From assembly GCA_022013635.1 (NCBI GenBank), contig JAKLPX010000267.1, forward strand, positions 1 to 14,305: 14,305 nucleotides of DNA, given 5' to 3'. Below are positions 138 through 13,988 of this stretch, piece after piece. The position numbers and the translations under genes were made by a program. Numbering within the stretch: position 1 is the stretch's first letter; every line of letters starts with the position of its first letter. Source of the stretch: Candidatus Delongbacteria bacterium. GTDB taxonomy: Bacteria > UBA4055. The notes under the pieces were generated by a model. The model saw nothing but the letters and a program-made list of their open reading frames with translations. It made no database searches and was not told the DNA's origin.

Positions 138-2522
138 ATGAGTAAAACCGGAGTATATCTTTGCCAATGCGGAGGCAATATATCCAACACTATTGATTTG
201 GATAAAGTATCGGCTTACATCAAAGAGAAATACGGCGAAGGCACGGAAGTAAAGATTTTTTCACACACATGTTCGGGCGCCGGCCAAAAGCTTATCAAGG
301 ATGACATTGAAAGTCTGGGTTTGGACAGGATCGTTGTTGCTGCATGTTCACCGCAGTTCCATGAAAAAACATTTAAAGCCGCAATGGAAAAAGGCGGACT
401 TAATGCGCATGTTCTTGAGATCGCCAATTTCAGGGAGCATATTTCCTGGACGCACAAGGACAATCCTGAAGCAGCCACGGAAAAAGCCAAGGACATTATA
501 AGTGCATCAATTGCCAAAGTAAAGCTTAATGAACCGCTGAATCCTAAGACTATGAAACTAGGAGACAGGGTACTTGTGATCGGCGGGGGAATTGCCGGAA
601 TACAAACTTCTCTTGACCTTGCAGATGCAGGGAAAAAAGTCACATTGGTAGAAAAACTTCCGACTATCGGCGGTAAAATGGCCGTTCTTACCAAAACTTT
701 TCCGACTGAAGATTGTTCGGCATGTATAATATCTCCAAAGATGTCCGATGTGCAGGATCATCCTAATATTAAACTATACACAAATTCTGAAATAGACAAT
801 ATTCAGGGTCACAGGCTTCATTTCAAGGCTACGATCAGAAAGAAACCCAGATATATCACAGATACAATTAATATGGATCAGTGTCTCTCCTGCGAAAAGT
901 GCGTTCAAGCTTGTCCGGTAACAACCAGAAATTACTGGGAGCAGGGAGTTATTGACAGAAAAGCCGTTTATATTCCGGCGGCGCTTGCAATTCCGTTCAG
1001 GTACATCGTTGATCCTGAAACCTGTCTCAACTTTAAGGGAGAGACTTGCACCAAATGTATTGATATATGTCCTCAAAAAGTTATAGACCTTACACAGAAA
1101 GAAGAAATAGTTGATGAAGTATTCGATACGATAGTCGTAGCAACTGGCTATGATATTTATAATGCCGCCGAGAAAACCGTTTTCGGTTACGGAAGGTATC
1201 AAAATGTCGTGTCGGGTCTTGAGATGGAAAGAATTGTTGACCACATTTCGGAAGAAGTACCGCCGAGAGATGTAGGGCACAGAGTAGCATTCATTCAATG
1301 CGTAGGATCACGCGACGAACAGATCGGAAGAGAATACTGCTCAAGAGTATGTTGCATGTATTCCGTCAAACTTGCTTCACTTTTAAAACAGGCTAAACCG
1401 GATACGGACATCTATATTTTCTATACTGATCTGAGGGCTTTCGGAAAAGGGTTCGAGGAGTATTATAAGAAAGCTCAAAAGATGGGTGTAAAATTCGTCA
1501 GAGGTAAACCGTCCCATTTCACAGAAAACACAGCCACAAAGCAAGTTACCGTTACGGTTGAGGATACGCTGACAAGACAGATTATCGAAAGCGATTTCGA
1601 CCTTGTAGTACTTGCAAACGGTATGGAATTAAGCAAATCAACTGACAAAATAGCAAACTATCTCAAACTCGCAAAGAGCGAGGACGGATTTTTAAAAGAA
1701 GCGCATCCGAAATATAAACCGGTCGACACTCTTATTGAAGGAGTATTTATCGCAGGTGCCGCACAGGGACCAAAAGACATTCCGGATACCGTAACTCAGG
1801 CAAGCGCTGCGGCTGCAAGGGTAATAGTGACACTTGCCCAGAAAGAATTCAAGATCGATCCGATACTCGCGTTCGTACATCAGGATATCTGCGACGGTTG
1901 CAAATCATGTATTTCAAAATGTCCGAAGAACGCGATCACAATGAACTCAGTCGGAAAGGCTGAAGTCGTTGAAGCGCTGTGTCTCGGCTGCGGGTCATGT
2001 CTGGAAAGCTGTCCGGTGGAAGCGTTAGATCTTCATGCCTATACAAACGAACAGGTTTACGCTCAGATAGATGTGATATTCAGGAACAGAAAAGAAAATG
2101 AAAAAAGAATACTTGTATTTGCCGATAATAACTGTACTTACAGAGTAGCAGACGCGCTCGGTGTCAGAAAAATGAAATACACGGCTGATGTCCGGATAAT
2201 CAGAATGCCTACCAGCGGAAGAGTAACATCGAAACTGATGCTTTACGCGTTCAAGAAAGGCGCGGACGCTATAATGGTCGGAGACTGCGAGAAAGAGAAT
2301 TTACGGGTGGAATGGACCAGCGTCACGGCTAAAAATAATATTAAGATCACGGAAGAAAAACTGAAAGGATCCGGAGTTAAAGGACAAAGAATATATTTCG
2401 AAGAATTCAATGCGGGTGCACTGGCCAAGTTCGTCAATAATGTTACTGCAATTGCGGAATCGTTAAAGACAGCCGATCCGATCAGCACCGAAATAAGGGA
2501 GAAATTATGCCTAAGAAAATAA
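138..2522 (+). CDS. hdrA: HdrA-type FAD/iron-sulfur subunit with C-terminal FlpD/MvhD-like domain
   Basis: This is the heterodisulfide reductase subunit A type flavoprotein, the bifurcating subunit of cytoplasmic HdrABC complexes. The N-terminal domain shows CQCGG (C9, C11) and CS-PQFHEKTF at 70-79. An FAD Rossmann motif GGGIAG lies at 149-154. An inserted ferredoxin domain carries C249-C252-C255-C259 and C296-C304-C307-C311. A second FAD-domain half has C387, C401, C405 and C406. A C-terminal two-cluster ferredoxin domain has C585-C588-C591-C595 and C615-C618-C621-C625. Residues about 655-775 resemble FlpD/MvhD, as in fused HdrA proteins, which explains the 794 aa length against roughly 650 aa for plain HdrA. 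In that tail only C666 and C717 remain of the usual cluster cysteines. The ATG has only a weak AGG (128-130) in front. The 3' end overlaps hdrC by 16 nt. Electron partners are inferred, not shown. Confidence 0.95.
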   Translation: MSKTGVYLCQCGGNISNTIDLDKVSAYIKEKYGEGTEVKIFSHTCSGAGQKLIKDDIESLGLDRIVVAACSPQFHEKTFKAAMEKGGLNAHVLEIANFREHISWTHKDNPEAATEKAKDIISASIAKVKLNEPLNPKTMKLGDRVLVIGGGIAGIQTSLDLADAGKKVTLVEKLPTIGGKMAVLTKTFPTEDCSACIISPKMSDVQDHPNIKLYTNSEIDNIQGHRLHFKATIRKKPRYITDTINMDQCLSCEKCVQACPVTTRNYWEQGVIDRKAVYIPAALAIPFRYIVDPETCLNFKGETCTKCIDICPQKVIDLTQKEEIVDEVFDTIVVATGYDIYNAAEKTVFGYGRYQNVVSGLEMERIVDHISEEVPPRDVGHRVAFIQCVGSRDEQIGREYCSRVCCMYSVKLASLLKQAKPDTDIYIFYTDLRAFGKGFEEYYKKAQKMGVKFVRGKPSHFTENTATKQVTVTVEDTLTRQIIESDFDLVVLANGMELSKSTDKIANYLKLAKSEDGFLKEAHPKYKPVDTLIEGVFIAGAAQGPKDIPDTVTQASAAAARVIVTLAQKEFKIDPILAFVHQDICDGCKSCISKCPKNAITMNSVGKAEVVEALCLGCGSCLESCPVEALDLHAYTNEQVYAQIDVIFRNRKENEKRILVFADNNCTYRVADALGVRKMKYTADVRIIRMPTSGRVTSKLMLYAFKKGADAIMVGDCEKENLRVEWTSVTAKNNIKITEEKLKGSGVKGQRIYFEEFNAGALAKFVNNVTAIAESLKTADPISTEIREKLCLRK

Positions 2523-2911
2523 CATTGAACGATAAAGGTATCGAATTTTTAAAGAAAATACAGGAACTCAGCGGAGAAACGATCACTCTGTGCGATCAGT
2601 GCGGAACCTGCTCCGGAGGATGTCCTTTTGTAGAGGACATGGATATCACTCCGTCACAGATCATGAGAAAAACAATGCTCGGTCAAACTGATGTTATGGA
2701 TTCAAAAACTATGTGGATCTGCGCTTCATGCTATACCTGTACCGTAAGGTGTCCGAGAATGCTTGATGTTTCAAAGGTATCGGAAGCTCTCAGGCAGGTA
2801 AAATTAAGACAGGCGATAGACAAAATAAATATTGATGACATAACACCTGAAGATGCCAATGAACTTCCTTCCATCGCAGTCGTATCCGCTTTCAGAAAAT
2901 TCACCGGATAA
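2507..2911 (+). CDS. hdrC: HdrC-type iron-sulfur subunit
   Basis: This small 134 aa protein has two ferredoxin-type 4Fe-4S motifs, C29-C32-C35-C39 and C72-C75-C78-C82, the signature of heterodisulfide reductase subunit C. In HdrABC complexes HdrC wires electrons between the HdrA flavin and the HdrB active site. The length is slightly short for the family but both motifs are complete. AAGGGAG at 2495-2501 stands 5 nt before the ATG, inside the end of hdrA, and the 16-nt overlap implies translational coupling and roughly equal expression. There is no signal peptide or membrane segment, so it should be cytoplasmic. Confidence 0.93.
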   Translation: MPKKITLNDKGIEFLKKIQELSGETITLCDQCGTCSGGCPFVEDMDITPSQIMRKTMLGQTDVMDSKTMWICASCYTCTVRCPRMLDVSKVSEALRQVKLRQAIDKINIDDITPEDANELPSIAVVSAFRKFTG

Positions 2912-2965
2912 TGCCGGAAATAATTTAAGTAACAAAAATTGAAATAAATTTCAGGACATTATAAA

Positions 2966-3868
2966 ATGAAAGAAAATATAAAGATCCCTTATTTTCCGGG
3001 ATGTACCCTTAAAACAAAAGCAAAAAATTTCGAGGTTTCCGCAATTGAAGCGAGTAAAATGATCGGTATTGAACTTACTGAAATACCGAAATGGAACTGC
3101 TGCGGTGTAGTTTCTTCGCTATCCACAGACGATCTGATGAAACATATAGCCCCTGTCAGAAATCTTATCAGGGTTCAGGAAATGAACGATTCAGGCCAAG
3201 CGAACGGCAATAGGCTTTTAACGCTGTGTTCAATGTGCTTCAATTCTATGAAGAGGACAAATCAGAGGGTAAAGAACAAACCTGAAGATATGAAATCCAT
3301 CAATGACTTCATGTATCTGGAAAAAGATTATCTTGGCGGAGTTGAAGTAATTCACTATTTTGAGTTACTTGACGAAGAAATTCTCGGCAGGATAAAAGAA
3401 AAATCCGTTAAATCTCTAAAGGATCTTAAGATAGCACCGTATTATGGCTGTATGCTTTTAAGACCCAAAGACATCGGAATTGATAATCCGGAAGAACCTT
3501 CCGTAATGGAAAATCTGATATCGTCATTAGGCGGAAAACCCGTAAAATGGGATGCCAAAAGCAGATGCTGCGGGAGTTATCACACAGTAAATAATAAAGA
3601 TATTGTCATAAATCTGGCTAAAGGAATTATCGAAAATGCAAGAAAATCCGGAGCGGACACAATAATTACTTCATGTCCGTTGTGCGCATTCAATCTTGAT
3701 AACAGACAGAAAGAGATAATTAAAAAAGATCACGGTTTCAGAACAATGCCTGTATTCTATTTTTCACAATTAATGGCAGTGGCATTCGGGCTTAAAGAAG
3801 AATTTATCGGATTAGATGGAAATTATATTGATCCTAAACCTCTGCTGAAAGAAAAAAAATTAATATAA
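2966..3868 (+). CDS. hdrB: HdrB-type subunit with two CCG (cysteine-rich) domains
   Basis: This 300 aa protein is the catalytic-type subunit of heterodisulfide reductase. Two CCG domains are visible: C13, C45-C46, C88-C91, then C162, C201-C202, C237-C240. In methanogen HdrB these bind two noncubane 4Fe-4S clusters that cleave the CoM-S-S-CoB disulfide. All expected cysteines are present, although the C46-C88 gap (41 residues) is a little longer than the textbook spacing. Bacteria lack that disulfide, so the real substrate is unknown. It may be a different disulfide, or HdrB may hand electrons to the fumarate reductase-like subunits encoded next. The gene follows hdrC after 54 nt, with AGGA at 2953-2956 as a modest ribosome binding site. 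The gap also holds a weak AT inverted repeat (TGAAAT/ATTTCA). Confidence 0.93.
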   Translation: MKENIKIPYFPGCTLKTKAKNFEVSAIEASKMIGIELTEIPKWNCCGVVSSLSTDDLMKHIAPVRNLIRVQEMNDSGQANGNRLLTLCSMCFNSMKRTNQRVKNKPEDMKSINDFMYLEKDYLGGVEVIHYFELLDEEILGRIKEKSVKSLKDLKIAPYYGCMLLRPKDIGIDNPEEPSVMENLISSLGGKPVKWDAKSRCCGSYHTVNNKDIVINLAKGIIENARKSGADTIITSCPLCAFNLDNRQKEIIKKDHGFRTMPVFYFSQLMAVAFGLKEEFIGLDGNYIDPKPLLKEKKLI

Positions 3869-3882
3869 TAACGGGAGTAATT

Positions 3883-4569
3883 ATGTCGGATACTCAAAAA
3901 ATGGTAAAGGTATATGTTATGGGCGAAGCGTACATGGTCCCGGAAGGCTCAACCATAGTCGGAGCATTTGAATACGCGGGATTTCAACTGAAAAGAGGCG
4001 TAGGGTGTCGAGAAGGATTTTGTGGTGCTTGCGCAACAGTTTACAGAGAAAAAGGTGACTACAAATTAAAAGGTGGTCTAGGCTGCCAAACAGTGGTTAC
4101 AGACGAAATGTATATAGCTCAGATACCTTTTGTTCCCGCTGACAAACCTATCTATGATATGGATGAGATCACACCTGATGCAGGTACATTCATGAACTTG
4201 TATCCGAGCGTGTTTAGATGCGTTTCTTGTAATACTTGTACTAAAGCATGTCCTCAGGACATTCAAGTAATGGATTACATCCAGGCAATAATCAAAGGTG
4301 ATATTGCTGAAGCGGCGAACCTGTCCTTTGACTGTATAAGATGCGGTCTGTGTGCGCTTCGTTGTCCCGCTGAGATTGTTCAGTTCAATGCGGCAATTCT
4401 GGCTCAAAGACTCTACGGAAAATATATTGCTCCGAAAAGCCCTGAACTTGAAGTAAGAGCAAATGAGATCATAGAAGGCAAATATGTCAAAGAACTTGAA
4501 GAACTTGCCACAATGGAAAAGCAAAAACTGGTGGATAAATACTATAACCGTGAAATAAAAATATCTTAG
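3883..4569 (+). CDS. Succinate dehydrogenase/fumarate reductase iron-sulfur subunit, HdrC-like variant
   Basis: The N-terminal half is a plant-type 2Fe-2S ferredoxin domain (C42, C47, C50, C68), as in SdhB/FrdB/TfrB. The C-terminal half holds C113-C116-C119-C123 and C151-C154-C157-C161, both CxxCxxCxxxCP. Canonical SdhB/FrdB instead has a split second motif giving one 4Fe-4S and one 3Fe-4S cluster. The motifs here predict two 4Fe-4S clusters, as in HdrC and thiol:fumarate reductase-like proteins. At 228 aa it has no CCG domain, unlike full TfrB. It should carry electrons between the FAD subunit encoded next and a soluble partner, plausibly HdrABC just upstream. The ATG follows GGGAG at 3873-3877. 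Its TAG stop overlaps the ribosome binding site of the next gene. Confidence 0.85.
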   Translation: MSDTQKMVKVYVMGEAYMVPEGSTIVGAFEYAGFQLKRGVGCREGFCGACATVYREKGDYKLKGGLGCQTVVTDEMYIAQIPFVPADKPIYDMDEITPDAGTFMNLYPSVFRCVSCNTCTKACPQDIQVMDYIQAIIKGDIAEAANLSFDCIRCGLCALRCPAEIVQFNAAILAQRLYGKYIAPKSPELEVRANEIIEGKYVKELEELATMEKQKLVDKYYNREIKIS

Positions 4570-4578
4570 GGAGATATC

Positions 4579-6249
4579 ATGTATCCAGAATATATGCAGG
4601 AATCTATAAAAAAAGTTGAAGCTACGAGACCGGATAGATTAGAACTTGCTAGAAAACTCGGCAAGATGATCTACCCCGGAATGAACAAGCAGGAAAGGGA
4701 AGAGGTATTAAATGAAAATCATCCTGATTATAAAGCCGAAGCCAGGACAAAAGTTAGGATCGGGCCTGATAAAGGTATGGTCATGACAACTGAAATTGCA
4801 GAAATGTTAGAGAGATATTCAAGAATTGATATAAAGAATTTTGATCTGTCAAAAGCGGATATTAAAACAGATGTGCTTGTAATCGGAGCAGGATCAGCTG
4901 GAATGTCAGCTGCTATAGTTGCTTCAGAACAGGGATCTGAAGTTCTTCTCGCAACAAAACTGCGTCTCGGAGATTCGAACTCAATGATGGCTCAGGGAGG
5001 TATCCAGGCAGCAGATCAGGCAGATGATTCACCGATAATTCACTATCTTGATGTAATGGGCGGCGGACATTTCGACAACAAACCCGACCTTGTAAAAGCA
5101 CTTGTTAACGATGCGCCTTTATCCATTAAATGGCTTGAAGATATGGGTGTTATGTTCGATAAAAAAGAATCCGGACAGATGGTTGTACAACCGGGCGGCG
5201 GAACAAGCCGGAACAGAATGCATTCGGCAAGAGATTATACCGGAGCGGCGATTTGTAAGGTCATAAGAGATGAGGTTTATAACAGAGCCGATAAAATAAA
5301 ATATATTGAATATACAGCTATTGTCGAATTGTTGCTTAACGATAAGAAAGAGGTTTCGGGTGCAGTAATGTATCATTTGGAAAACAAACAATTTTCGATT
5401 GTTAAAGCGAAGTCTGTTATTATTTCAACAGGTGGTTTCGGAAGATTACATATAAGAGGATTCGAAACAAGCAATCACTACGGCGCAACGGCTGATGGTA
5501 TTGCTTTTGCGTACAGGGCAGGTGCACACTTGTTGTACATGGACTCAGTGCAATATCACCCGACAGGAGCAGTTTATCCCGAGCAGATCGTGGGATTCTT
5601 ATGTACTGAAAAAATAAGAGCAATAGGTGCTCAACCTGTTAATAAAGATGGTGAACTTTTCGTTTACCCCTTAGAACCGCGTGATGTTGAAGCTTCTGCT
5701 TTCATTCGTGAATGTAATAATGGAAAAGGGATCTCTACTCCATCAGGAATCAAGGGAATTTGGCTCGACACACCTTTGATCGACCAGATAAACGGTGAAG
5801 GAACGATCGAAAAAGAACTTCCTGCAATGTTAAGGCAGTATCAAAGGTTCGGTATTGATATAAGAGAAGTACCGATGTTGGTTTATCCTACGCTTCATTA
5901 TCAAAACGGCGGGATTGATATCAATGACAGATGTGAAACGAATGTTCCGGGTCTTTATGTGGCAGGAGAGGCTACAGGCGGTGTTCACGGAAGGAACAGA
6001 CTTATGGGTAATTCTCAACTTGATATAATAGTATTCGGAAAAAGAGCCGGACAGTATGCATCAGAAAGAGCAAAAACGATAGAAGATGCAGGAAATTTAT
6101 CATTAGATCATGTATTAGCTTATAATAAGGAAGTTGAGGCTTTAGGAATAGAAAGAAGTAAAGTTTCTCCTATAATATTACCGGACTATATACCTGATCA
6201 TGTAAAAGCTAAACAACTGATCCAGGAGTATAACGGAACACTTATTTAA
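4579..6249 (+). CDS. Succinate dehydrogenase/fumarate reductase flavoprotein subunit (SdhA/FrdA family)
   Basis: This FAD enzyme interconverts succinate and fumarate. An FAD Rossmann motif GAGSAG is at 103-108, after an unusual leader of about 95 residues. MAQGGI (137-142) is the flavin-contact motif. Active-site elements of the family are visible: HPTG (327-330), TEKIR (343-347), EPRD with the likely catalytic R368, H440 in LHYQNGG, and GRNRLMGNS (471-479) with R474. The position of the FAD-bonding His of SdhA/FrdA (SHT before the AQGG motif) is Asn134 (SNS), so FAD is probably noncovalent, as in L-aspartate oxidase and soluble fumarate reductases. Only about 75 residues follow GNS, so the usual long C-terminal domain is mostly missing. 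AGGGAG at 4568-4573 precedes the ATG. No SdhC/D anchor follows. Reaction direction is not settled. Confidence 0.88.
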   Translation: MYPEYMQESIKKVEATRPDRLELARKLGKMIYPGMNKQEREEVLNENHPDYKAEARTKVRIGPDKGMVMTTEIAEMLERYSRIDIKNFDLSKADIKTDVLVIGAGSAGMSAAIVASEQGSEVLLATKLRLGDSNSMMAQGGIQAADQADDSPIIHYLDVMGGGHFDNKPDLVKALVNDAPLSIKWLEDMGVMFDKKESGQMVVQPGGGTSRNRMHSARDYTGAAICKVIRDEVYNRADKIKYIEYTAIVELLLNDKKEVSGAVMYHLENKQFSIVKAKSVIISTGGFGRLHIRGFETSNHYGATADGIAFAYRAGAHLLYMDSVQYHPTGAVYPEQIVGFLCTEKIRAIGAQPVNKDGELFVYPLEPRDVEASAFIRECNNGKGISTPSGIKGIWLDTPLIDQINGEGTIEKELPAMLRQYQRFGIDIREVPMLVYPTLHYQNGGIDINDRCETNVPGLYVAGEATGGVHGRNRLMGNSQLDIIVFGKRAGQYASERAKTIEDAGNLSLDHVLAYNKEVEALGIERSKVSPIILPDYIPDHVKAKQLIQEYNGTLI

Positions 6250-6261
6250 AACGGATAAAAT

Positions 6262-7431
6262 ATGAAAATTCATGAATATCAGGCGAAGGAATTATTTGCT
6301 ATGTATGACATTCCGATCCCAAAAGGTAAGATGATACATAATCCGGAAGATGCGATGGAGGCTGCTAGAGAGATCGGTGGCGGGGTATGGGCAGTAAAAG
6401 CTCAGATCCATGCAGGCGGAAGAGGAAAGGGCGGGGGAGTAAAACTCGCAAGGTCATTGACAGAAGTGAGCGACCACGCAAAAAGCATTCTCGGCATGAA
6501 TCTTGTGACTGCTCAGACAGGACATGAAGGGCAATTTGTAAGAAAGGTATATATTGAAGGCGGAGTTGATATAGCCAAGGAATTTTATCTTGGTATGGTT
6601 CTCGACAGAGCTTCAGAATTGCCGGTGATGATGGTTTCCACCGAAGGCGGAATGGAGATCGAGAAGGTAGCCGAAGAAACTCCCGGGAAGATCATAAAAG
6701 TTTATATTGATCCTTTATACGGTTTACAGGCATTTCAGATCATGGAGATGGGATTTAAGATCGGACTTCATAAAAATCAGTTGAAAGAATTCTATTTCTT
6801 TGCTAAGAAATTATATGAACTTTATATAGATCTCGATGCAAGCATAGTTGAGATCAATCCGCTTGTTCTTACGAATGACGATAAATTTCTGGCTCTTGAC
6901 GCAAAAATAGCTTTTGACGACAATGCGCTTTACAGGCATGATGATATTGTAGGGATGAGGGATTTTTCAGAGGAAGAACCCGCTGAAATGGAAGCCGGAA
7001 AATACGGATTGAACTATGTAAAATTAGACGGGAATGTCGGATGCATGGTAAATGGTGCAGGACTGGCAATGTCAACCATGGATATTATCAAACATGAGGG
7101 TGGAAATCCGGCTAATTTTCTGGATGTCGGAGGCGGAGCCAGCGCAAGCACTGTAGCTAAAGGATTTGAGATCATATTAAAAGATCAGAATGTTAAAGCG
7201 ATCTTTGTAAATATATTCGGAGGTATTGTCCGCTGCGACAGAATTGCTAATGGTATTTTAGAAGCAATAAAATTAACTAAAGTTACTGTTCCAATTATTG
7301 TCAGGCTTGATGGTACAAATTCAGAAGAAGCTTCAGAAATATTAAGGAATGCCAATATCGAAAATATTATTCCGGCTAAAGACCTTGCTGACGGCGCAAA
7401 ATTAGCTGTCAAAGCCGCGGAGGGAAAATAA
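6262..7431 (+). CDS. sucC: Succinyl-CoA synthetase (ADP/GDP-forming) beta subunit
   Basis: This is the ATP-grasp subunit of succinate-CoA ligase, which converts succinyl-CoA, Pi and ADP or GDP to succinate, CoA and ATP or GTP. The start [20 protein letters not shown] (50-60), EINP (197-200, metal/nucleotide site), NGAG (264-267) and [10 protein letters not shown] (317-326) are all family hallmarks. The 389 aa length is normal. The gene lies 12 nt after the flavoprotein with only a weak GGA before the ATG, so it probably depends on translation from upstream. In this operon it supplies or consumes the succinate used by the neighbouring oxidoreductase and is the substrate-level phosphorylation step. 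Nucleotide preference cannot be read from the sequence. Confidence 0.96.
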
Positions 7432-7432
7432 T

Positions 7433-8308
7433 ATGAGCATCTTCGTAAATAAAGATTCAAAAGTGATAATTCAGGGCTTTACCGGCAAGGAAGGCACTTT
7501 TCATGCTCAGCAATGTATTGAATACGGCACAAATGTCGTGGGTGGCATCACTCCCGGAAAAGGCGGACAGAATCATCTGGATAAGGATGTTTACAATACA
7601 GTTAAAGAAGCTGTAGAGCAAACAGGTGCTGATGTGTCTCTGATTTTTGTTCCGCCGGCTTATGGAGCAGACGCAATAATGGAAGCCGCCGCAGCCGGAA
7701 TTAAAATTATTGTATGTATAACCGAAGGTATTCCCGTAAAAGATATAATGATAGCAAAAAAGTTTGTAATTAAAAACGGCTCAATATTGATCGGTCCAAA
7801 TTGTCCGGGAATTATCACTCCTGAAGAAACCAAGATCGGTATCATGCCGGGATTTATATTTAAAAAAGGCAGTATAGGCTTAATCTCTAAATCAGGTACA
7901 TTGACTTATGAAGCAGCTAATCAAATCGTAAAAGCAGGTTTGGGAATTTCTACTGCGATCGGTATAGGCGGAGATCCGATAATCGGTACTTCGTTCATTG
8001 ATGCCTTAGAACAATTTGAGAAAGATGATGAAACAAAAGCTGTGGTAATGATCGGTGAGATCGGCGGCGACTTGGAAATACAGGCTGCAAAATATATAAA
8101 AGAGCATTTTTCTAAACCTGTCGTAGCATTTATCGCAGGGCAGACTGCACCAAAGGGAAAAAGAATGGGTCACGCCGGAGCTATCATAGCCGGAAGCAAA
8201 GGTACAGCTTCTGAGAAAATGGATGCATTAAAAGCTGCGGGAGTTTCAGTTGCGGACAGCCCGGCTGTTATAGGCGAAACAATAAAGAATATAATGGATA
8301 AATTATAA
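7433..8308 (+). CDS. sucD: Succinyl-CoA synthetase alpha subunit
   Basis: This is the CoA-binding subunit that carries the phosphohistidine intermediate. [10 protein letters not shown] (15-24) starts the CoA-binding Rossmann domain, GPNCPGI (121-127) follows, and the phosphorylated histidine is H247 in [16 protein letters not shown]. The 291 aa length is normal. Only one nucleotide separates the sucC stop from this ATG, and GGAGGG at 7419-7424 inside the end of sucC is the ribosome binding site, so the two subunits are tightly coupled. The protein pairs with SucC as a heterodimer or heterotetramer in the cytoplasm. Confidence 0.97.
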
Positions 8309-8322
8309 TATACGGAGTAATT

Positions 8323-9168
8323 ATGAGAGAAATTCATGTTAGCGACATTATTTCCTCGGTAAAAAAACTTAGTATTGAAGCGAATTATTATCTCGGGCAG
8401 GATGTTATTGATAGAATGATCTCACTCAAGGAGAAGGAAGAATCCGAGACCGGAGTTGAAGTCATGAACATTCTTCTTAAAAACTATGAACTCGCTGCAA
8501 AAGAAAAGATGCCTATCTGTCAGGACACCGGAATTGCTGTGATCTTTGTAGAACTCGGACAGGATGTACATCTGGTCGGCGGTGATTTTACCGAAGCAAT
8601 AAACGAAGGTGTGCGGCAGGGTTACAAAGAGGGTTATTTGAGAAAATCAATGGTGAATGATCCGATAATCGAACGGAAGAATACAACCGATAATACTCCC
8701 GCTATAATTTACACCGAAATTGTGCAGGGCGACAAGATTAAGATTACCATTGCTCCGAAAGGCGGCGGGTCGGAAAATATGAGCGAAGTAAAGATGATGA
8801 AAGCAGCCGACGGTATCGAAGGCGTGATGGATTTTGTCGTTGACCGGATCAGAAGGTCAGGCGGAAACCCATGTCCTCCTATTGTTGTCGGTGTCGGACT
8901 CGGCGGAAATTTCGAGCAAAGCGCTCTTTTGGCAAAAAAATCTCTTTTGAGAGAGATCGGATCGCCAAATCCGGAACCGAAATGGGATCAATATGAAGAA
9001 GAATTGCTTAAGAGAATCAACGATCTCGGGATCGGTCCACAGGGACTGGGCGGCAGGACAACGGCTCTGGCTGTTCATATACTGACAAAGCCCTGTCATA
9101 TTGCATCAATGCCTGTAGCGGTCAATGTGCAATGCCATGCAGCGAGACATAAATCAATAATATTATAA
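8323..9168 (+). CDS. Class I (iron-sulfur) fumarate hydratase, alpha subunit
   Basis: This is the 4Fe-4S-binding half of a two-subunit class I fumarase, reversibly hydrating fumarate to L-malate. PICQDTGIA (64-72, C66), GGNPCPP (180-186, C184), GPQGLGGRT (238-246) and NVQCHAARH (268-276, C271) are typical. C66, C184 and C271 are the best cluster-ligand candidates, with C258 nearby. The 281 aa length fits the separate alpha subunit. Related subunits act in tartrate dehydratase, but the neighbours (succinate-fumarate enzyme, malic enzyme) point to fumarase. CGGAG at 8313-8317 precedes the ATG. Class I fumarases are oxygen-labile, consistent with an anaerobe. Confidence 0.93.
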   Translation: MREIHVSDIISSVKKLSIEANYYLGQDVIDRMISLKEKEESETGVEVMNILLKNYELAAKEKMPICQDTGIAVIFVELGQDVHLVGGDFTEAINEGVRQGYKEGYLRKSMVNDPIIERKNTTDNTPAIIYTEIVQGDKIKITIAPKGGGSENMSEVKMMKAADGIEGVMDFVVDRIRRSGGNPCPPIVVGVGLGGNFEQSALLAKKSLLREIGSPNPEPKWDQYEEELLKRINDLGIGPQGLGGRTTALAVHILTKPCHIASMPVAVNVQCHAARHKSIIL

Positions 9169-9180
9169 TACGGAGGCATT

Positions 9181-9735
9181 ATGGCTAAAACAGTTTATCT
9201 AAAAACACCGATAGATAGTAAAGACCTGACTGACCTCCAGATCGGTGATAAGGTATTTATTACCGGTACGATCTATACTGCAAGGGATGCAGCCCATAAA
9301 AGACTGGTTCAATTGCTTGATAAAGGTGAAAAATTACCGTTTGACCCTCAGGGGCAGGCGATATATTATGTAGGTCCGGCACCTACTCCTCCCGGAAAAG
9401 CGATAGGATCGGCAGGTCCGACAACAAGCTACAGAATGGATCCTTACGCTCCCGCATTGATGGATGCAGGTATAAAAGCTATGATCGGAAAAGGAGAAAG
9501 AAGCAAACCTGTAATAGAATCTATGATAAAGAACAAAGCGGTATATCTTGCTGCGATAGGCGGTGCGGCTGTAGTTATTGCGGAATCAATAAAAAAATCT
9601 GAAATAATCGCATATGAAGATCTTGGAGCAGAAGCAATAAGAAAGCTGGAAGTCGAGAATTTTCCATGTATAGTAGCAAATGATATTAATGGGAACGACA
9701 TCTTTGTAGAGGGTGTAAAAAAATATAAGAGATAA
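9181..9735 (+). CDS. Class I fumarate hydratase, beta subunit
   Basis: This is the second half of the class I fumarase, corresponding to the C-terminal domain of single-chain enzymes. ARDAAHKR (34-41), GPAPTPPG (65-72), GPTTSYRMD (79-87) and GKGE (103-106) are family-conserved substrate-binding segments. At 184 aa it has the usual length of the stand-alone beta subunit. It starts 12 nt after the alpha gene with a strong GGAGG at 9172-9176. Both halves are complete and adjacent, so a functional heteromeric enzyme is expected. Confidence 0.93.
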   Translation: MAKTVYLKTPIDSKDLTDLQIGDKVFITGTIYTARDAAHKRLVQLLDKGEKLPFDPQGQAIYYVGPAPTPPGKAIGSAGPTTSYRMDPYAPALMDAGIKAMIGKGERSKPVIESMIKNKAVYLAAIGGAAVVIAESIKKSEIIAYEDLGAEAIRKLEVENFPCIVANDINGNDIFVEGVKKYKR

Positions 9736-9762
9736 CGAAATTATAAATAATTAAGGGAGTAA

Positions 9763-11220
9763 ATGATGGAAAAGATCAAGATGGATCTATCAAATCTAAA
9801 CAAAGTTTTCCCTGACGATTTCAGCCAGGAACAGATTGCAAAAGCAAAAACAGCGTTCCTAAAAAAACTTTCTCAGACTGCACATAAATTCTACGGCGGA
9901 AAGATACAGACCGTCCCGAAAGCTGGCGTATTCGGCTTCAACTGGTTCAATGTCTGGTACACTCCCGGCGTCTCTAAAGTTTCTACCGATATCCGAGAGA
10001 ATAACGAAGCTTCATTTGATCTCACAAACAGAGGAAACCTTGTTGGAGTCGTAAGTGATTCTACAAGAGTTCTCGGCGATGGTGATTGTACTCCTGCAGG
10101 CGGACTTGGAGTTATGGAAGGTAAAGCATTCTTAATGAAATATCTCGGCGGTGTTGATGCGGTTGCTCTGTGTGTTGACAGTAAAGGTAAAAACGGCAAG
10201 AACGATCCCGAAAAGATCATTGAATTTGTAAAAATGGTTCAGCATAGTTTCGGTGCAATTAACTTGGAAGATATTTCTCAACCGAACTGCTTTAAAGTTC
10301 TTGATGTATTACGCGAAGAATGTGACATTCCGGTATGGCATGATGATGCGCAGGGAACCGCGAGTGTTACTTTAGCAGGTCTGATAAATGCTTTGAAACT
10401 CGTTAAAAAAAGTATTAAAGATGTTAAAATCGTCTTTTTAGGCGCAGGAGCATCAAATACGACAATCGCAAGACTTATCATAACTGACGGAGCTGATCCC
10501 GGTAATCTTATTATGTTTGATACAAAAGGCTCATTGAACAAAGGCAGAGAAGATATTAAAGCGGATAAGAGATTTTACAGAAAGTGGGAGCTGTGCGAAA
10601 AAACAAATAAAGGTCAGGTTACATCTATCGAAGATGCGTTTAAAGGCGCTGATGTCCTTATAGCTCTATCTACTCCCGGACCTGATACGGTCAAAAAAGA
10701 ATGGATATCGGCTATGGCAGAAAAATCCATCGTTTTCACATGCGCAAACCCTGTTCCTGAAATTTATCCTTACGCCGCAAAAGAGGCAGGCGCATACATT
10801 GTCGCAACGGGCAGGGGAGACTTTCCGAATCAGGTGAATAATTCTATAGGCTTTCCCGGAATTCTTAAAGGCGCTTTAATGGTAAGAGCAAGAAAGATCA
10901 CCGACACAATGGCAATCGCAGCAGCTCACTCTTTGGCTGACTACGCAGAGAAACGCGGTATTGATCCTGAAAATATAGTTCCTACAATGAGCGAAGCAAC
11001 GGTATTCCCAGTTGAAGCCGCTGATGTAGCAATGCAGGCAATTAAAGACGGTGTAGCAAGAATTAACATGACATGGGACGAAGCCTTTGCCAAGGCTAAA
11101 ACTGATATTGAATATTCAAGAAACATGACACAATCACTGATGGACACCGGATTCATTAAAACACCGGAAGATTCAATGCTTCAGGAAGCACTTGACTGGG
11201 CAGTCGGGCAGGTAAAGTAA
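9763..11220 (+). CDS. NAD(P)-dependent malic enzyme (malate <-> pyruvate + CO2)
   Basis: This enzyme oxidatively decarboxylates L-malate to pyruvate. YTPGVS (66-71) holds the catalytic Tyr. VLGDGDCTPAGGLGVMEGKA (103-122) includes the catalytic Lys K121. LED (168-170) and HDDAQGTA (193-200) give metal ligands. GAGAS (227-231) is the dinucleotide motif and GRGDFPNQVNN (350-360) the conserved C-terminal signature. The length of 485 aa is longer than the roughly 400 aa small bacterial form. NAD versus NADP preference is not readable here. Two ATGs are adjacent. AAGGGAG at 9753-9759 lies 3 nt before the first and 6 nt before the second (9766), so the second may be the true start. This is the last gene of the operon and connects the C4 branch to pyruvate. 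Confidence 0.93.
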   Translation: MMEKIKMDLSNLNKVFPDDFSQEQIAKAKTAFLKKLSQTAHKFYGGKIQTVPKAGVFGFNWFNVWYTPGVSKVSTDIRENNEASFDLTNRGNLVGVVSDSTRVLGDGDCTPAGGLGVMEGKAFLMKYLGGVDAVALCVDSKGKNGKNDPEKIIEFVKMVQHSFGAINLEDISQPNCFKVLDVLREECDIPVWHDDAQGTASVTLAGLINALKLVKKSIKDVKIVFLGAGASNTTIARLIITDGADPGNLIMFDTKGSLNKGREDIKADKRFYRKWELCEKTNKGQVTSIEDAFKGADVLIALSTPGPDTVKKEWISAMAEKSIVFTCANPVPEIYPYAAKEAGAYIVATGRGDFPNQVNNSIGFPGILKGALMVRARKITDTMAIAAAHSLADYAEKRGIDPENIVPTMSEATVFPVEAADVAMQAIKDGVARINMTWDEAFAKAKTDIEYSRNMTQSLMDTGFIKTPEDSMLQEALDWAVGQVK

Positions 11221-11476: not shown

Positions 11477-11626
11477 ATGAAATTGAAAATGATAATAAGA
11501 AAAGCGGAAGAAGGTGGCTTTTGGGCTGAAATTCCTTCTATACCTGGTTGCGTAACCCAAGGCGAAACATTTGAAGAATTATTAAAAAATATTTACGAAG
11601 CCGCTGAAGGGTGTTTATCAACATGA
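11477..11626 (+). CDS. Short HicB-like antitoxin, probably C-terminally truncated
   Basis: The 49 aa protein shows the HicB/UPF0150 fold signature: [17 protein letters not shown] (4-20), the PGCVTQGET turn (23-31) and the amphipathic helix [16 protein letters not shown] (32-47). HicB-like proteins of this type usually run about 20 residues further, whereas this one ends at LST. GGAG (11466-11469) lies 7 nt before the ATG, and a good promoter precedes it, so it may be expressed. No HicA toxin is adjacent. Its 3' end overlaps the convergent DTW gene by 9 nt, so truncation by rearrangement at that border is likely. Small HicB-like proteins can also occur alone, so a functional orphan is possible. 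Confidence 0.7.
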
Positions 11627-12229
11627 GCCCATTTTAGTTTTAATATCATCAATCATTTTCAGAAATATTTTTTCCATTTCTTTTACAACCGGTCCGTTCT
11701 CTATTATTTCGATAGCTTTTATTATGGCTTCAATAGTTGATATTTTTTCACTATCCCTTGCAGTTCTCAGCTCGTAGGAGCTTTTTTGTCCGTAAGGCAG
11801 ACGGACCCTTTTGATGTCTCTCAACAGTTCAGACCGGGTCATTTTGACTGCCTGATGATAATTGCCGTCAAGAACGATCAGATTTATAGGTTTTTCGAGC
11901 GTTGATAAAAACTTTTCATTCAATTCGTTCGATGCCGCAGGAAATAGTATCAGGTTGGTATGATCTTTAAAGATCAGTTCTTCCGGTTGAAGTTCAATAT
12001 CTTTTCTGCCTAGAATTGCGATACCGCAGTTATTCAGCATGAGTTTTGCCAGCTTACCGGTATTAGTCGTTTTATTAATTTCTCTTATGTGCATTAAAAG
12101 TGTGATCTTAGTTCGAAGGTCGAATTTTTTGATCTTGGAGCAAATACATATACTTTTGAAAAGCATGCAGTCGGGGCATTTTTCGGGTCTGTTTTCTCTT
12201 TGCATTATAGTCCGTCGATTACTTTTCAA
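11618..12229 (-). CDS. DTW-domain protein, tRNA-uridine aminocarboxypropyltransferase-like
   Basis: DTW-domain enzymes transfer the aminocarboxypropyl group of S-adenosylmethionine to a uridine in tRNA. The 203 aa protein has the N-terminal Cys cluster C18, C21, C28, C30, the segment [17 protein letters not shown] (45-61), LFPA (95-98), and [11 protein letters not shown] (120-130) at the place of the name-giving DGTW motif, followed by RLPYG and STIEA (164-168). The motif reads DGNY, with Thr and Trp replaced, so activity may be altered. The first codon is TTG, with TAGGGA (12236-12241 reversed) 6 nt away. An ATG at codon 9 (12205) is the alternative. The TTG overlaps the stop of a tiny antitoxin-like reading frame upstream, suggesting coupling. 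Confidence 0.8.
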
Positions 12230-12445: not shown

Positions 12446-13372
12446 CTAAATTCTGACAGTCCACTCCAAACTTTTAAGACGATTCTTTATCTTTAAGAGT
12501 GTTTCTAATATCTCTTTTTCATTTGGGAATTCACCGAAAACCAGATTTTGGAAGTCAGATCGATAAACTGTTTTAAGAGATCGCCATATTTCTTCTGTAT
12601 CTGAGAATATTTTAGCTTTCTCAGGGTGATAATTCAGCCATTGATTATTATTTTTGAAGCTTACAATGTCATCGTTTCCGACTTTAAGCAGCATTTCGTC
12701 AAAATCTTCCGATTCGAAAAATTCAAGTAATTCTTTGTTTTTAAGCATCTGATTGAGATCATAAGTGTGTCTAATTTTCAAACTCAGATCAGTAAGAGCA
12801 TCTTCCGTATAAGAAAACCGAACGAGGCTCATTATCTTTTCGCAGAATGTCCGTTTCGGATCAAGAACGAGGACTTCAAACGGTTCCATCGCGTATTCTT
12901 TCACCAACCCGTCTTGTCCTGAATCTTTCATCATTTGATAGATAAATGAGCTGACTTTTGCATTTGTATAAGGCTCAAAATATCCCAGCCAGGTAGCTTC
13001 AACAGCCACAAAATCTTTAACCTGACCGTAATCTTCATCAAACTCTTTCTTATATTCGTGAGCCGTTTTTCTTATCATCCCTCTTTTGTGCGTGAAATTT
13101 TCGACATAGATCTCCGGCAGAATTCGATTAACGATCTTTCCGATCTTACGCAGCTTTGTTGTCAGCTGATTGCTGCTTTCATTCCCCTTTCTGAGTATTA
13201 CAAGATCAATATCCTCTGAAAATCTCTGTATCATGTCAAAACATTTCTGGAGCGAAGTTCCGCCTTTGAATATTACTTCTTCTCCCAAAGTATTTTTAAA
13301 GACAGACCTGATCACATAAGTTACCCAGTAATCCTTTTCAACGAATATTTTCTTTAATTCCATCGCCTTCAT
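12446..13372 (-). CDS. AbiEii/AbiGii-type nucleotidyltransferase toxin homologue, N-terminally shortened
   Basis: This protein belongs to the AbiEii (DUF1814, COG2253) family, the toxin half of type IV abortive-infection systems. FVEKDYWVTYV (10-20), FKGGTSL (35-41) and FSEDIDL (51-57, metal Asp D54 and D56) form the nucleotidyltransferase core. RTFCEKI (174-180) and RHTYDL (201-206) are the later family motifs. All catalytic motifs are intact in 308 aa. Relatives usually have about 25 more residues before the VEKDYW segment; here those are missing, an in-frame TAG lies 9 nt before the ATG, and a RhuM-like remnant occupies that place. There is no good ribosome binding site for either ATG (codon 1 or 4). 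No AbiEi antitoxin is adjacent. The gene may be decaying or an orphan. Confidence 0.8.
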   Translation of the reverse strand: MKAMELKKIFVEKDYWVTYVIRSVFKNTLGEEVIFKGGTSLQKCFDMIQRFSEDIDLVILRKGNESSNQLTTKLRKIGKIVNRILPEIYVENFTHKRGMIRKTAHEYKKEFDEDYGQVKDFVAVEATWLGYFEPYTNAKVSSFIYQMMKDSGQDGLVKEYAMEPFEVLVLDPKRTFCEKIMSLVRFSYTEDALTDLSLKIRHTYDLNQMLKNKELLEFFESEDFDEMLLKVGNDDIVSFKNNNQWLNYHPEKAKIFSDTEEIWRSLKTVYRSDFQNLVFGEFPNEKEILETLLKIKNRLKSLEWTVRI

Positions 13373-13464: not shown

Positions 13465-13493
13465 GTTATTTGTTAACCTTGGAGAAATCATTA

Positions 13494-13988
13494 ATGAAAA
13501 AATTGAACATTTATCTTGATACAAGCGTAATAAATCATCTTTTTGCCGATGATGCACCTGAAGCCAAATTGATCACAAAAGAACTCTTTGAAAAGTTTAT
13601 TAAGAATAAAAAGTATAATACTTATATTTCTCCGATAGTAATAAACGAAATAAATCAGACTACAAGTGGTGAGAAAAAATCTAAACTGCTTTCAATAATC
13701 TCAGAATACGATCTTATTATTTTAGATATCGAAACCGACAAGAATGAAATAGAATCCATAGCTCAAGGCTACCTGGAGCAGGGCATTCTTCCCAGAAAAA
13801 GCCTTTTGGACGCTTTGCACATAGCCGTTTGTACTTACTATGAAATAGACGCTCTTGTCAGCTGGAATTATAAACACATGGCAAATATCAACAGAGAAAG
13901 AAAGATCATATCATGGAATATCGGTGAAGGTTATACGCACAACATGAGAATCTGTACGCCTATGGAGGTCATTTATGAAAACGAATAA
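13494..13988 (+). CDS. PIN-domain toxin-like ribonuclease
   Basis: PIN-domain proteins are Mg-dependent endoribonucleases, commonly the toxins of VapBC-type systems. The acidic catalytic set is visible: D9 in IYLDTSV, E52 in INEINQT, D106 in LLDALHIA, plus N125 in SWNYKHMAN in the fourth position. The start is taken at this ATG, 9 nt after GGAG (13481-13484), which gives 164 aa beginning MKKLNIYLDTS. An upstream in-frame TTG (13470) adds eight residues with no ribosome binding site. The last 14 nt overlap the next gene, so toxin precedes antitoxin. The gene is divergent from the AbiEii-like gene. Target RNA is unknown. Confidence 0.85.
   Translation: MKKLNIYLDTSVINHLFADDAPEAKLITKELFEKFIKNKKYNTYISPIVINEINQTTSGEKKSKLLSIISEYDLIILDIETDKNEIESIAQGYLEQGILPRKSLLDALHIAVCTYYEIDALVSWNYKHMANINRERKIISWNIGEGYTHNMRICTPMEVIYENE

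Follow-up and report, generated by a model that had tools for sequence, protein, structure and literature searches.

A ten-gene hdrACB-sdhBA operon of Candidatus Delongbacteria encoding a putative soluble electron-bifurcating fumarate reductase

Closest described systems

In anaerobes, fumarate reduction is normally tied to quinones and membranes. Hydrogenobacter thermophilus reportedly uses a soluble fumarate reductase of several subunits with NADH as donor, as proposed here for another system; its genes are said to be scattered, and we know of no report of bifurcation for this enzyme. The locus considered here is a run of ten genes, hdrA-hdrC-hdrB-sdhB-sdhA-sucC-sucD-fumA-fumB-mae, on contig JAKLPX010000267.1 of a Candidatus Delongbacteria genome (GCA_022013635.1), the whole stretch of 14,305 nucleotides being called the window. 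The explanation favoured, with slightly better than even confidence, is a soluble electron-bifurcating fumarate reductase, in which an HdrACB-SdhBA complex, probably fed by NADH, would deliver ferredoxin to 2-oxoglutarate synthase and Rnf.

Several described systems share parts of this arrangement; statements on sources cited by PMC number refer to the available parts of those texts. HdrA2B2C2 of Methanosarcina acetivorans (Yan, Wang, Ferry 2017, PMC5296606), of which bacterial homologs have been reported, is soluble and combines an MvhD-fused HdrA with HdrB and HdrC partners. Its donor is F420H2 and its acceptor CoM-S-S-CoB, whereas the window has sdhBA and C4 pathway genes; in the main text of that paper, "fumarate" occurs once, for a culture medium. 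The same makeup, HdrA with a C-terminal MvhD/FlpD domain plus HdrB and HdrC, is present in the window, whose HdrA is HdrA2-like by profile comparison, scoring 863.1 bits (cut-off 1100) with the NCBIfam HdrA2 model (NF040770), which covered residues 1-775 of 777. MvhADG-HdrABC of methanogens shares the HdrABC core, window HdrA scoring 665 bits to a solved chain, whereas in the window MvhAG is missing, the FlpD ligands are lost and fumarate reductase subunits replace heterodisulfide use.

Gene clusters closer in content are also known. In tubeworm symbionts, tfrAB lies beside flxABCD-hdrABC and korABCD (Rubin-Blum 2019, PMC6315080; PMC11636981), a system likened here by its description and differing in its Flx genes. 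The idea that Hdr electrons pass directly to thiol:fumarate reductase (TFR) and 2-oxoglutarate:ferredoxin oxidoreductase (OGOR) was stated for these symbionts (PMC6315080; PMC11636981), in which tfrAB expression departs from that of the remainder of the cluster (PMC11636981). The TFR-OGOR-fumarase-SucCD-Mvh-Hdr cluster of Ca. Celaenobacter (Williams 2021, PMC8542988) belongs to the same cluster family but in the Mvh form, and an Hdr-Mvh-TFR-OGOR cluster has been published for Cloacimonadota (PMC8542988); a Celaenobacter locus, L026, is among those compared below. In Culexarchaeia, SdhA stands beside HdrA2B2C2 as in the window, although the surrounding cluster there encodes a group 4 [NiFe]-hydrogenase (Ehe); both reaction directions were discussed (PMC9723716).

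Related clusters and the bifurcation idea have thus already been published in part. No Hdr-Sdh complex of this kind appears in the available parts of PMC10579422, PMC3570798, PMC5317091, PMC12542636, PMC11225162, PMC11287216 and PMC5861303, and the text of PMC12054007 mentions neither fumarate, succinate, frdA, sdhA nor tfr. The phrase "bifurcating fumarate reductase" is absent from the literature searched, a weak negative since most subscription papers lie outside it. Not seen in that literature were an HdrA2-type operon hdrACB-sdhBA-sucCD-fumAB-mae, a cross-phylum family with apparently exchangeable donors, and its loss of FlpD ligands. By the tests made here, the window system is neither TfrAB (its SdhA misses the TfrA cut-off, and SdhB and HdrB are separate genes) nor membrane complex II nor MvhADG-HdrABC.

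The operon and its predicted complex

The ten open reading frames (ORFs) form one run on the + strand from 138 to 11220, with intergenic gaps, in gene order, of -16, 54, 14, 9, 12, 1, 14, 12 and 27 nt. Families were assigned by Pfam and NCBIfam profile scans, as follows.

138..2522, + strand: HdrA, HdrA2-like, with a C-terminal FlpD (MvhD) domain at residues 658-777 (Pfam, NCBIfam)
2507..2911, + strand: HdrC, two [4Fe-4S] motifs, 8 Cys (Pfam, NCBIfam, cysteine count)
2966..3868, + strand: HdrB, two CCG motifs, 10 Cys, two non-cubane cluster sites (Pfam, NCBIfam)
3883..4569, + strand: SdhB-like iron-sulfur protein, Fer2, one [2Fe-2S] and two [4Fe-4S] motifs, 12 Cys (Pfam, NCBIfam)
4579..6249, + strand: SdhA-like fumarate reductase flavoprotein, N134 at the covalent-FAD His position (profiles, alignment, fold)
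6262..7431, + strand: SucC, succinyl-CoA ligase beta (574.5 bits, cut-off 370)
7433..8308, + strand: SucD, succinyl-CoA ligase alpha (448.5 bits, cut-off 336)
8323..9168, + strand: fumarase alpha subunit (415 bits, cut-off 276)
9181..9735, + strand: fumarase beta subunit (272.8 bits, cut-off 238)
9763..11220, + strand: malic enzyme (two Pfam malic domains over cut-off; below every NCBIfam cut-off)

The operon described by an earlier, sequence-only reading, running in one direction with gaps of 54 nt or less, is thereby confirmed with all its ORFs, and the gene names then given agree with the family scans. Its statement that gene order follows the pathway after hdr holds loosely, as sdhBA precede sucCD, out of step with a strict sequence of succinyl-CoA, succinate, fumarate, malate and pyruvate. 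The FlpD (MvhD) domain fused to HdrA is a feature that it had not mentioned. Promoter and terminator scans gave values close to those of shuffles and nothing usable.

In the mechanism proposed, HdrA-HdrC-HdrB and SdhB-SdhA would form a single cytoplasmic complex. A two-electron donor, most likely NADH, would reduce the HdrA flavin directly; one electron would take the high-potential branch from HdrA through HdrC, HdrB and SdhB to SdhA and fumarate, and the other would reach ferredoxin through other HdrA clusters. Two rounds would give 2 NADH + fumarate + 2 Fd(ox) -> 2 NAD + succinate + 2 Fd(red). The path from pyruvate to fumarate would run through malic enzyme and fumarase, and that from succinate to succinyl-CoA through SucCD. 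Reduced ferredoxin (Fd) would serve OGOR, encoded elsewhere in the genome and inside the operon in a relative, as well as the Rnf pump. Read from the sequence are the genes, their linkage, active-site residues, cluster ligands and the lack of anchor and quinone markers; formation of the complex, its donor, bifurcation and direction are predictions.

Absence of a membrane anchor and of quinone markers

No SdhC/D ORF lies within the ten-gene run, and the SdhC/D-type anchor family PF01127 has no match in the source genome (2.04 Mb, 413 contigs, 82% complete), other anchor families not having been searched. The same family is matched in 1 of 51 carrier genomes, a set made of the source genome (G000), genome G014 and the genomes of 49 of the 80 loci described below. 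The menaquinone markers MqnA/D and MenB exceed their curated cut-offs in 0/27 carrier genomes (those of 25 hand-chosen loci, G000 and G014), with matches under the cut-off in 1 and 4 genomes. The earlier remark that no SdhC/D anchor is encoded is thus borne out in the run, in the source genome and in 50/51 carriers. The cytoplasmic Hdr-SdhBA complex put forward at the same time gains from gene linkage, from the lack of anchor and quinone markers and from the HdrA core cysteines, and stays a prediction from genes.

Membrane complex II is set apart from the window by two features, as the latter has neither an SdhC/D-type anchor nor the His for covalent FAD. A quinone-linked complex II was rejected because the anchor and the menaquinone markers are missing, type E anchors and the FrdC/D families not having been searched.

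Conservation of the Hdr-Sdh linkage

Relatives were taken as the best 80 of 459 SdhA matches in a scan of named genomes, a sample in which near relatives are over-represented. The closest named SdhA relatives, 90 and 82% identical, are from Candidatus Delongbacteria. SdhB lies directly upstream of SdhA in 74/80 kept loci, and Hdr genes lie near SdhA (in flanks of at most 10 kb on each side) in 64/80, so that chance is not a sensible explanation. Among the 16 loci without Hdr nearby, 11 have less than 2.6 kb of upstream DNA. Conserved hdr-sdh linkage in relatives, which had been predicted from the window, is therefore found, and the idea of Hdr-Sdh coupling is well supported as genomics.

By their titles, the 64 Hdr-linked loci belong to Delongbacteria, Cloacimonadota, Neomarinimicrobiota, Spirochaetaceae, Armatimonadetes, Sumerlaeota, Atribacteria, Myxococcales, WOR-3, Stahlbacteria, Omnitrophota, Chloroflexi, Fibrobacterota, Firmicutes (including Clostridium algoriphilum DSM 16153) and archaea. 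Some titles of metagenome-assembled genomes may reflect misbinning, L033 (Armatimonadetes) being at a very short distance from L032 (Cloacimonadota).

SdhA and the direction of catalysis

The active-site set of fumarate reductases (His, Thr-Glu, Arg, His, Arg) is kept in all 82 SdhA copies, and the His that binds FAD covalently is absent in 82/82, with Asn instead. In FrdA, loss of this His blocks succinate oxidation, so that its absence here would favour fumarate reduction. Fumarate reductases also head the list of structural matches to an AlphaFold2 (AF2) model of SdhA built from a 43-row alignment, an earlier model from 16 close rows having been rejected as poor (pLDDT 61). The best NCBIfam match of SdhA is TfrA (NF004900), at 342.3 bits under a cut-off of 718. 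Roughly residues 1-95 (window 4579-4860) precede the part alignable with FrdA, TfrA and NadB; several positions of this N-terminal part are invariant across the 43 aligned copies. It may possibly serve in docking and is barely covered by the structure comparison.

The pathway context can be read in the same direction. The source genome encodes a KorABG set with 2-oxoglutarate oxidoreductase character (alpha over the 2-oxoacid oxidoreductase cut-off, beta at 359.8 bits for a cut-off of 364, gamma by eye), a POR_N frame of PFOR length, an RnfC-like ORF (by eye) and NADH-type dehydrogenase subunits. In L012, KorDABG immediately precedes hdrA, and the rest of the operon keeps the gene order of the window; citrate synthase (PF00285) has no match in the source, L001, L002 and L012 genomes. 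The Kor genes before hdrA, the Kor set and the citrate synthase pattern fit a reductive half-cycle from pyruvate to 2-oxoglutarate, in which Kor would use the bifurcated ferredoxin.

With NADH set at E0' and ferredoxin at -500 mV, bifurcation onto fumarate was computed to yield -33 kJ per fumarate. Over 30 settings the yield ranges from -51 to +5 kJ and is exergonic in 29/30; at high succinate/fumarate and low H2, with ferredoxin at -500 mV, the reaction is near equilibrium (-1 to +5 kJ). These values use commonly quoted redox potentials. The +33 mV taken for the fumarate couple is also given in PMC5861303.

The sequence-only reading had allowed for either direction. Fumarate reduction fares well, whereas propionate or succinate oxidation is less supported, given the missing FAD His, the fold, the energetics and the lack of methylmalonyl-CoA mutase (MCM) in the source genome. 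That enzyme, which the same reading had suggested looking for elsewhere in the genome, has no match in the 82% complete source genome nor in that of L002, and is found in many carriers, as taken up below. Propionate oxidation was consequently rejected as a role in this organism, where it is unproved, and kept open for relatives.

HdrA and its fused FlpD domain

The HdrA core, with its FAD domain and [4Fe-4S] cysteines as in flavin-based electron-bifurcating Hdr, is kept in the window, and the core cysteines are retained in fused HdrA copies apart from C618, lost in 2/11. The fused set comprises the window and ten loci with an HdrA match of at least 850 bits. L026 and L049, whose 794-aa HdrA has an FlpD domain devoid of the cluster cysteines, fall under this limit and outside the 11, and the HdrA of L021, truncated by a contig end, was excluded from the counts. 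All five FlpD [2Fe-2S] cysteines are present in 43/46 stand-alone MvhD proteins versus 0/11 fused copies; sites 1, 3 and 5 are lost in 11/11, and sites 2 and 4 are still Cys in 7/11 each. In the window these positions are occupied by D663, C666, T692, C717 and L722, so that three ligands are lost and C666 and C717 are left.

The function of MvhD fused to HdrA2 was stated as unknown in a review (PMC6019823). Given the lost cluster ligands, and by analogy with HdrA2 of M. acetivorans, whose flavin is reduced by F420H2 (PMC5296606), we infer that electrons would not enter via FlpD in the fused form and that the HdrA flavin would be reduced by hydride transfer from a soluble carrier. In Moorella, an HdrA homolog is able to reduce viologen with NADH (PMC5296606).

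Further HdrA-like proteins are encoded in the source genome: a group made of a 1018-aa protein with other Hdr-like neighbours (G000:C338, L114) and an HdrA-NuoE-like fusion adjoining a NuoF-like protein (G000:C144, L096).

Probable exchange of the electron-input module

No donor genes accompany the window's operon. Donor labels elsewhere are the best phmmer matches to hand-picked ORFs. In the 54 Hdr loci without fused HdrA, MvhA is found in 17, stand-alone MvhD in 38 and a FlxB/FrhB-like gene in 21, while 15/54, some of them short contigs, show no hydrogenase, Flx- or FrhB-like gene. Thus, L025 reads FumAB-KorABG-HdrCBA-MvhD-SdhBA-MvhGA, L028 reads MvhGA-HdrCBA-MvhD-maturation protease-SdhBA-Mae, and L063, from strain Clostridium algoriphilum DSM 16153, reads HdrBCA-MvhD-three Flx-like genes-SdhBA-Mae-FumAB. 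The L063 proteins, which we take to be Flx-like, match AsrA/sulfhydrogenase-beta and AsrB/NAD-binding reductase models below cut-offs; within the provisional FlxB group, an FrhB/FdhB-like protein is found in L076 and no FrhB match in L063. Among the ten fused-HdrA loci, only L050 has MvhA and MvhD, as part of a separate Mvh cluster alongside.

On the SdhA tree (FastTree, with open forks), for which 27/82 rows were set to unknown, eight of these by name, the label for fused HdrA requires 8 changes, of which starred branches force at least 5. The label is clustered (shuffled mean 10.6 changes; 8/500 shuffles as low), and fused and Mvh forms are intermixed inside one starred clade of 28 rows. This mixing, together with the varied donor genes, suggests that the input part was swapped while SdhBA stayed, and such an exchange seems to have occurred in the family.

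A hydrogenase-fed system in the window was rejected, as the hydrogenase family PF00374 has no match in the source genome (82% complete), G014 and the L001 and L002 genomes. In one WOR-3 genome, two Hdr-SdhBA clusters are adjacent (L050, 3143-18926), one of Mvh form, the other with a fused HdrA and a distant SdhA. L005 and L028 have, between MvhD and sdhB, a gene for a hydrogenase maturation protease (family scan for L028); its place inside an Hdr-Sdh run suggests joint expression of the hydrogenase and fumarate reductase genes.

Contrary observations and rival explanations

Several observations weigh against a bifurcating, NADH-fed fumarate reductase. HdrB keeps both non-cubane sites of disulfide chemistry, which a plain relay does not obviously need, and at a position where most unfused HdrA have a Cys the window has Ile102, the Cys being kept in 7/11 fused copies. 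HdrA2 of M. acetivorans was inactive with NAD (PMC5296606), so that NADH is a guess and the donor could be a separate protein. Five of the 80 loci (L004, L008, L042, L052, L062) have at least 7.3 kb of upstream DNA yet no hdr near sdhBA. HdrA is encoded elsewhere in all five genomes, as part of a fused-type hdrA-hdrC-hdrB trio on a contig without sdhBA in L004, L008 and L042 (the L008 HdrA being truncated at a contig end) and as unfused HdrA only in L052 and L062. Within the window's own family, SdhA is patchy, found at E <= 1e-60 in 4/13 genomes. Citrate synthase is matched in 2 of 6 carriers searched (the L026 and L063 genomes), and Rnf, Kor and PFOR are also compatible with an oxidative glutamate route. 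PF00374 is matched in 13/17 genomes searched, including 3 Mvh-form controls, and in 10/14 carriers of the fused type or the unlinked trio, so hydrogenase is not generally absent where fused HdrA occurs; the incompleteness of the source genome also makes its gene absences weak evidence. MCM is present in 34/51 carrier genomes, with two matches in that of L001, and the Kor-SdhBA operon of L008 includes a gene for methylmalonyl-CoA epimerase (152 bits, cut-off 115), with similar genes in the sdh operons of L004 and L042 (family scan for L008 only). Propionate metabolism, in either direction, would therefore matter in relatives. In these three loci the epimerase gene stands between Kor and sdhB, where hdr stands in L012, and hdrACB is elsewhere.

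The same genes could serve a confurcating succinate dehydrogenase, running in reverse from succinate and reduced ferredoxin to NADH (H2 in Mvh forms) during syntrophic propionate or glutamate oxidation. This is unlikely on balance: it would account for MCM in carriers, for the three Cloacimonadota sdh operons that include an epimerase gene, for Kor adjoining the cluster and for the settings near equilibrium, but the covalent-FAD His is absent throughout, fumarate reductases lead the structure list, the reductive direction is clearly downhill at most other settings, and MCM was not matched in the source and L002 genomes. Somewhat less probable still is a plain ferredoxin:fumarate reductase, an electron sink in which ferredoxin would feed HdrA and then fumarate without bifurcation. 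The ligand loss of the fused FlpD and the lack of a donor module alongside would leave ferredoxin as perhaps the sole soluble partner, and M. acetivorans HdrA2B2C2 also has ferredoxin:heterodisulfide activity (PMC5296606); such a route, however, wastes about 87 to 103 kJ per fumarate, retains a whole flavin core for little and leaves aside the many sister loci whose Mvh or Flx/FrhB-like genes suit bifurcation.

A thiol/disulfide link, in which the HdrB clusters of HdrABC would act on some unknown disulfide and SdhBA would draw electrons from the thiols like TfrAB, appears improbable. Both CCG sites are complete in HdrB, the TfrB model joins SdhB-like and HdrB-like halves, and TfrA is the best NCBIfam match of SdhA, but SdhB and HdrB are encoded separately and SdhA, SdhB and HdrB all score below Tfr cut-offs. 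Hardly credible is a quinone-linked type E enzyme with HdrB as its SdhE anchor: the SdhE-type anchor model gives HdrB 164 bits, close to its score with the HdrB model, yet the cut-off of the anchor model is 500, and MqnA/D and MenB do not pass theirs in any of the 27 carriers.

Genes beyond the operon

Downstream of the operon, the window has an ORF of 49 aa resembling, by eye, a HicB-type antitoxin (11477-11626, + strand), as well as genes for a DTW-domain protein (11618-12229, - strand), an AbiEii-type nucleotidyltransferase of the type IV toxin-antitoxin family (12446-13372, - strand) and a PIN-domain protein (13470-13988, + strand).

Significance

If the bifurcating fumarate reductase is real, it would explain how lineages without quinones obtain succinate, 2-oxoglutarate and low-potential ferredoxin from pyruvate. 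A broader proposal, held tentatively and with rather less than even confidence, is that fumarate is a so far unproved high-potential acceptor of Hdr-type bifurcation, that soluble HdrABC-SdhBA complexes form a widespread family with interchangeable input (hydrogenase, Flx-like or FrhB-like), and that HdrA of the window, its input cluster lost, takes the hydride of NADH directly at its flavin in a quinone-free fumarate respiration with energy recovered through ferredoxin and Rnf. The fused FlpD domain without cluster ligands would bear on the question of the role of fused MvhD in HdrA2, and a soluble bifurcating fumarate reductase would give a clear biochemical test for a cluster that genome papers name only fumarate reductase or Hdr.

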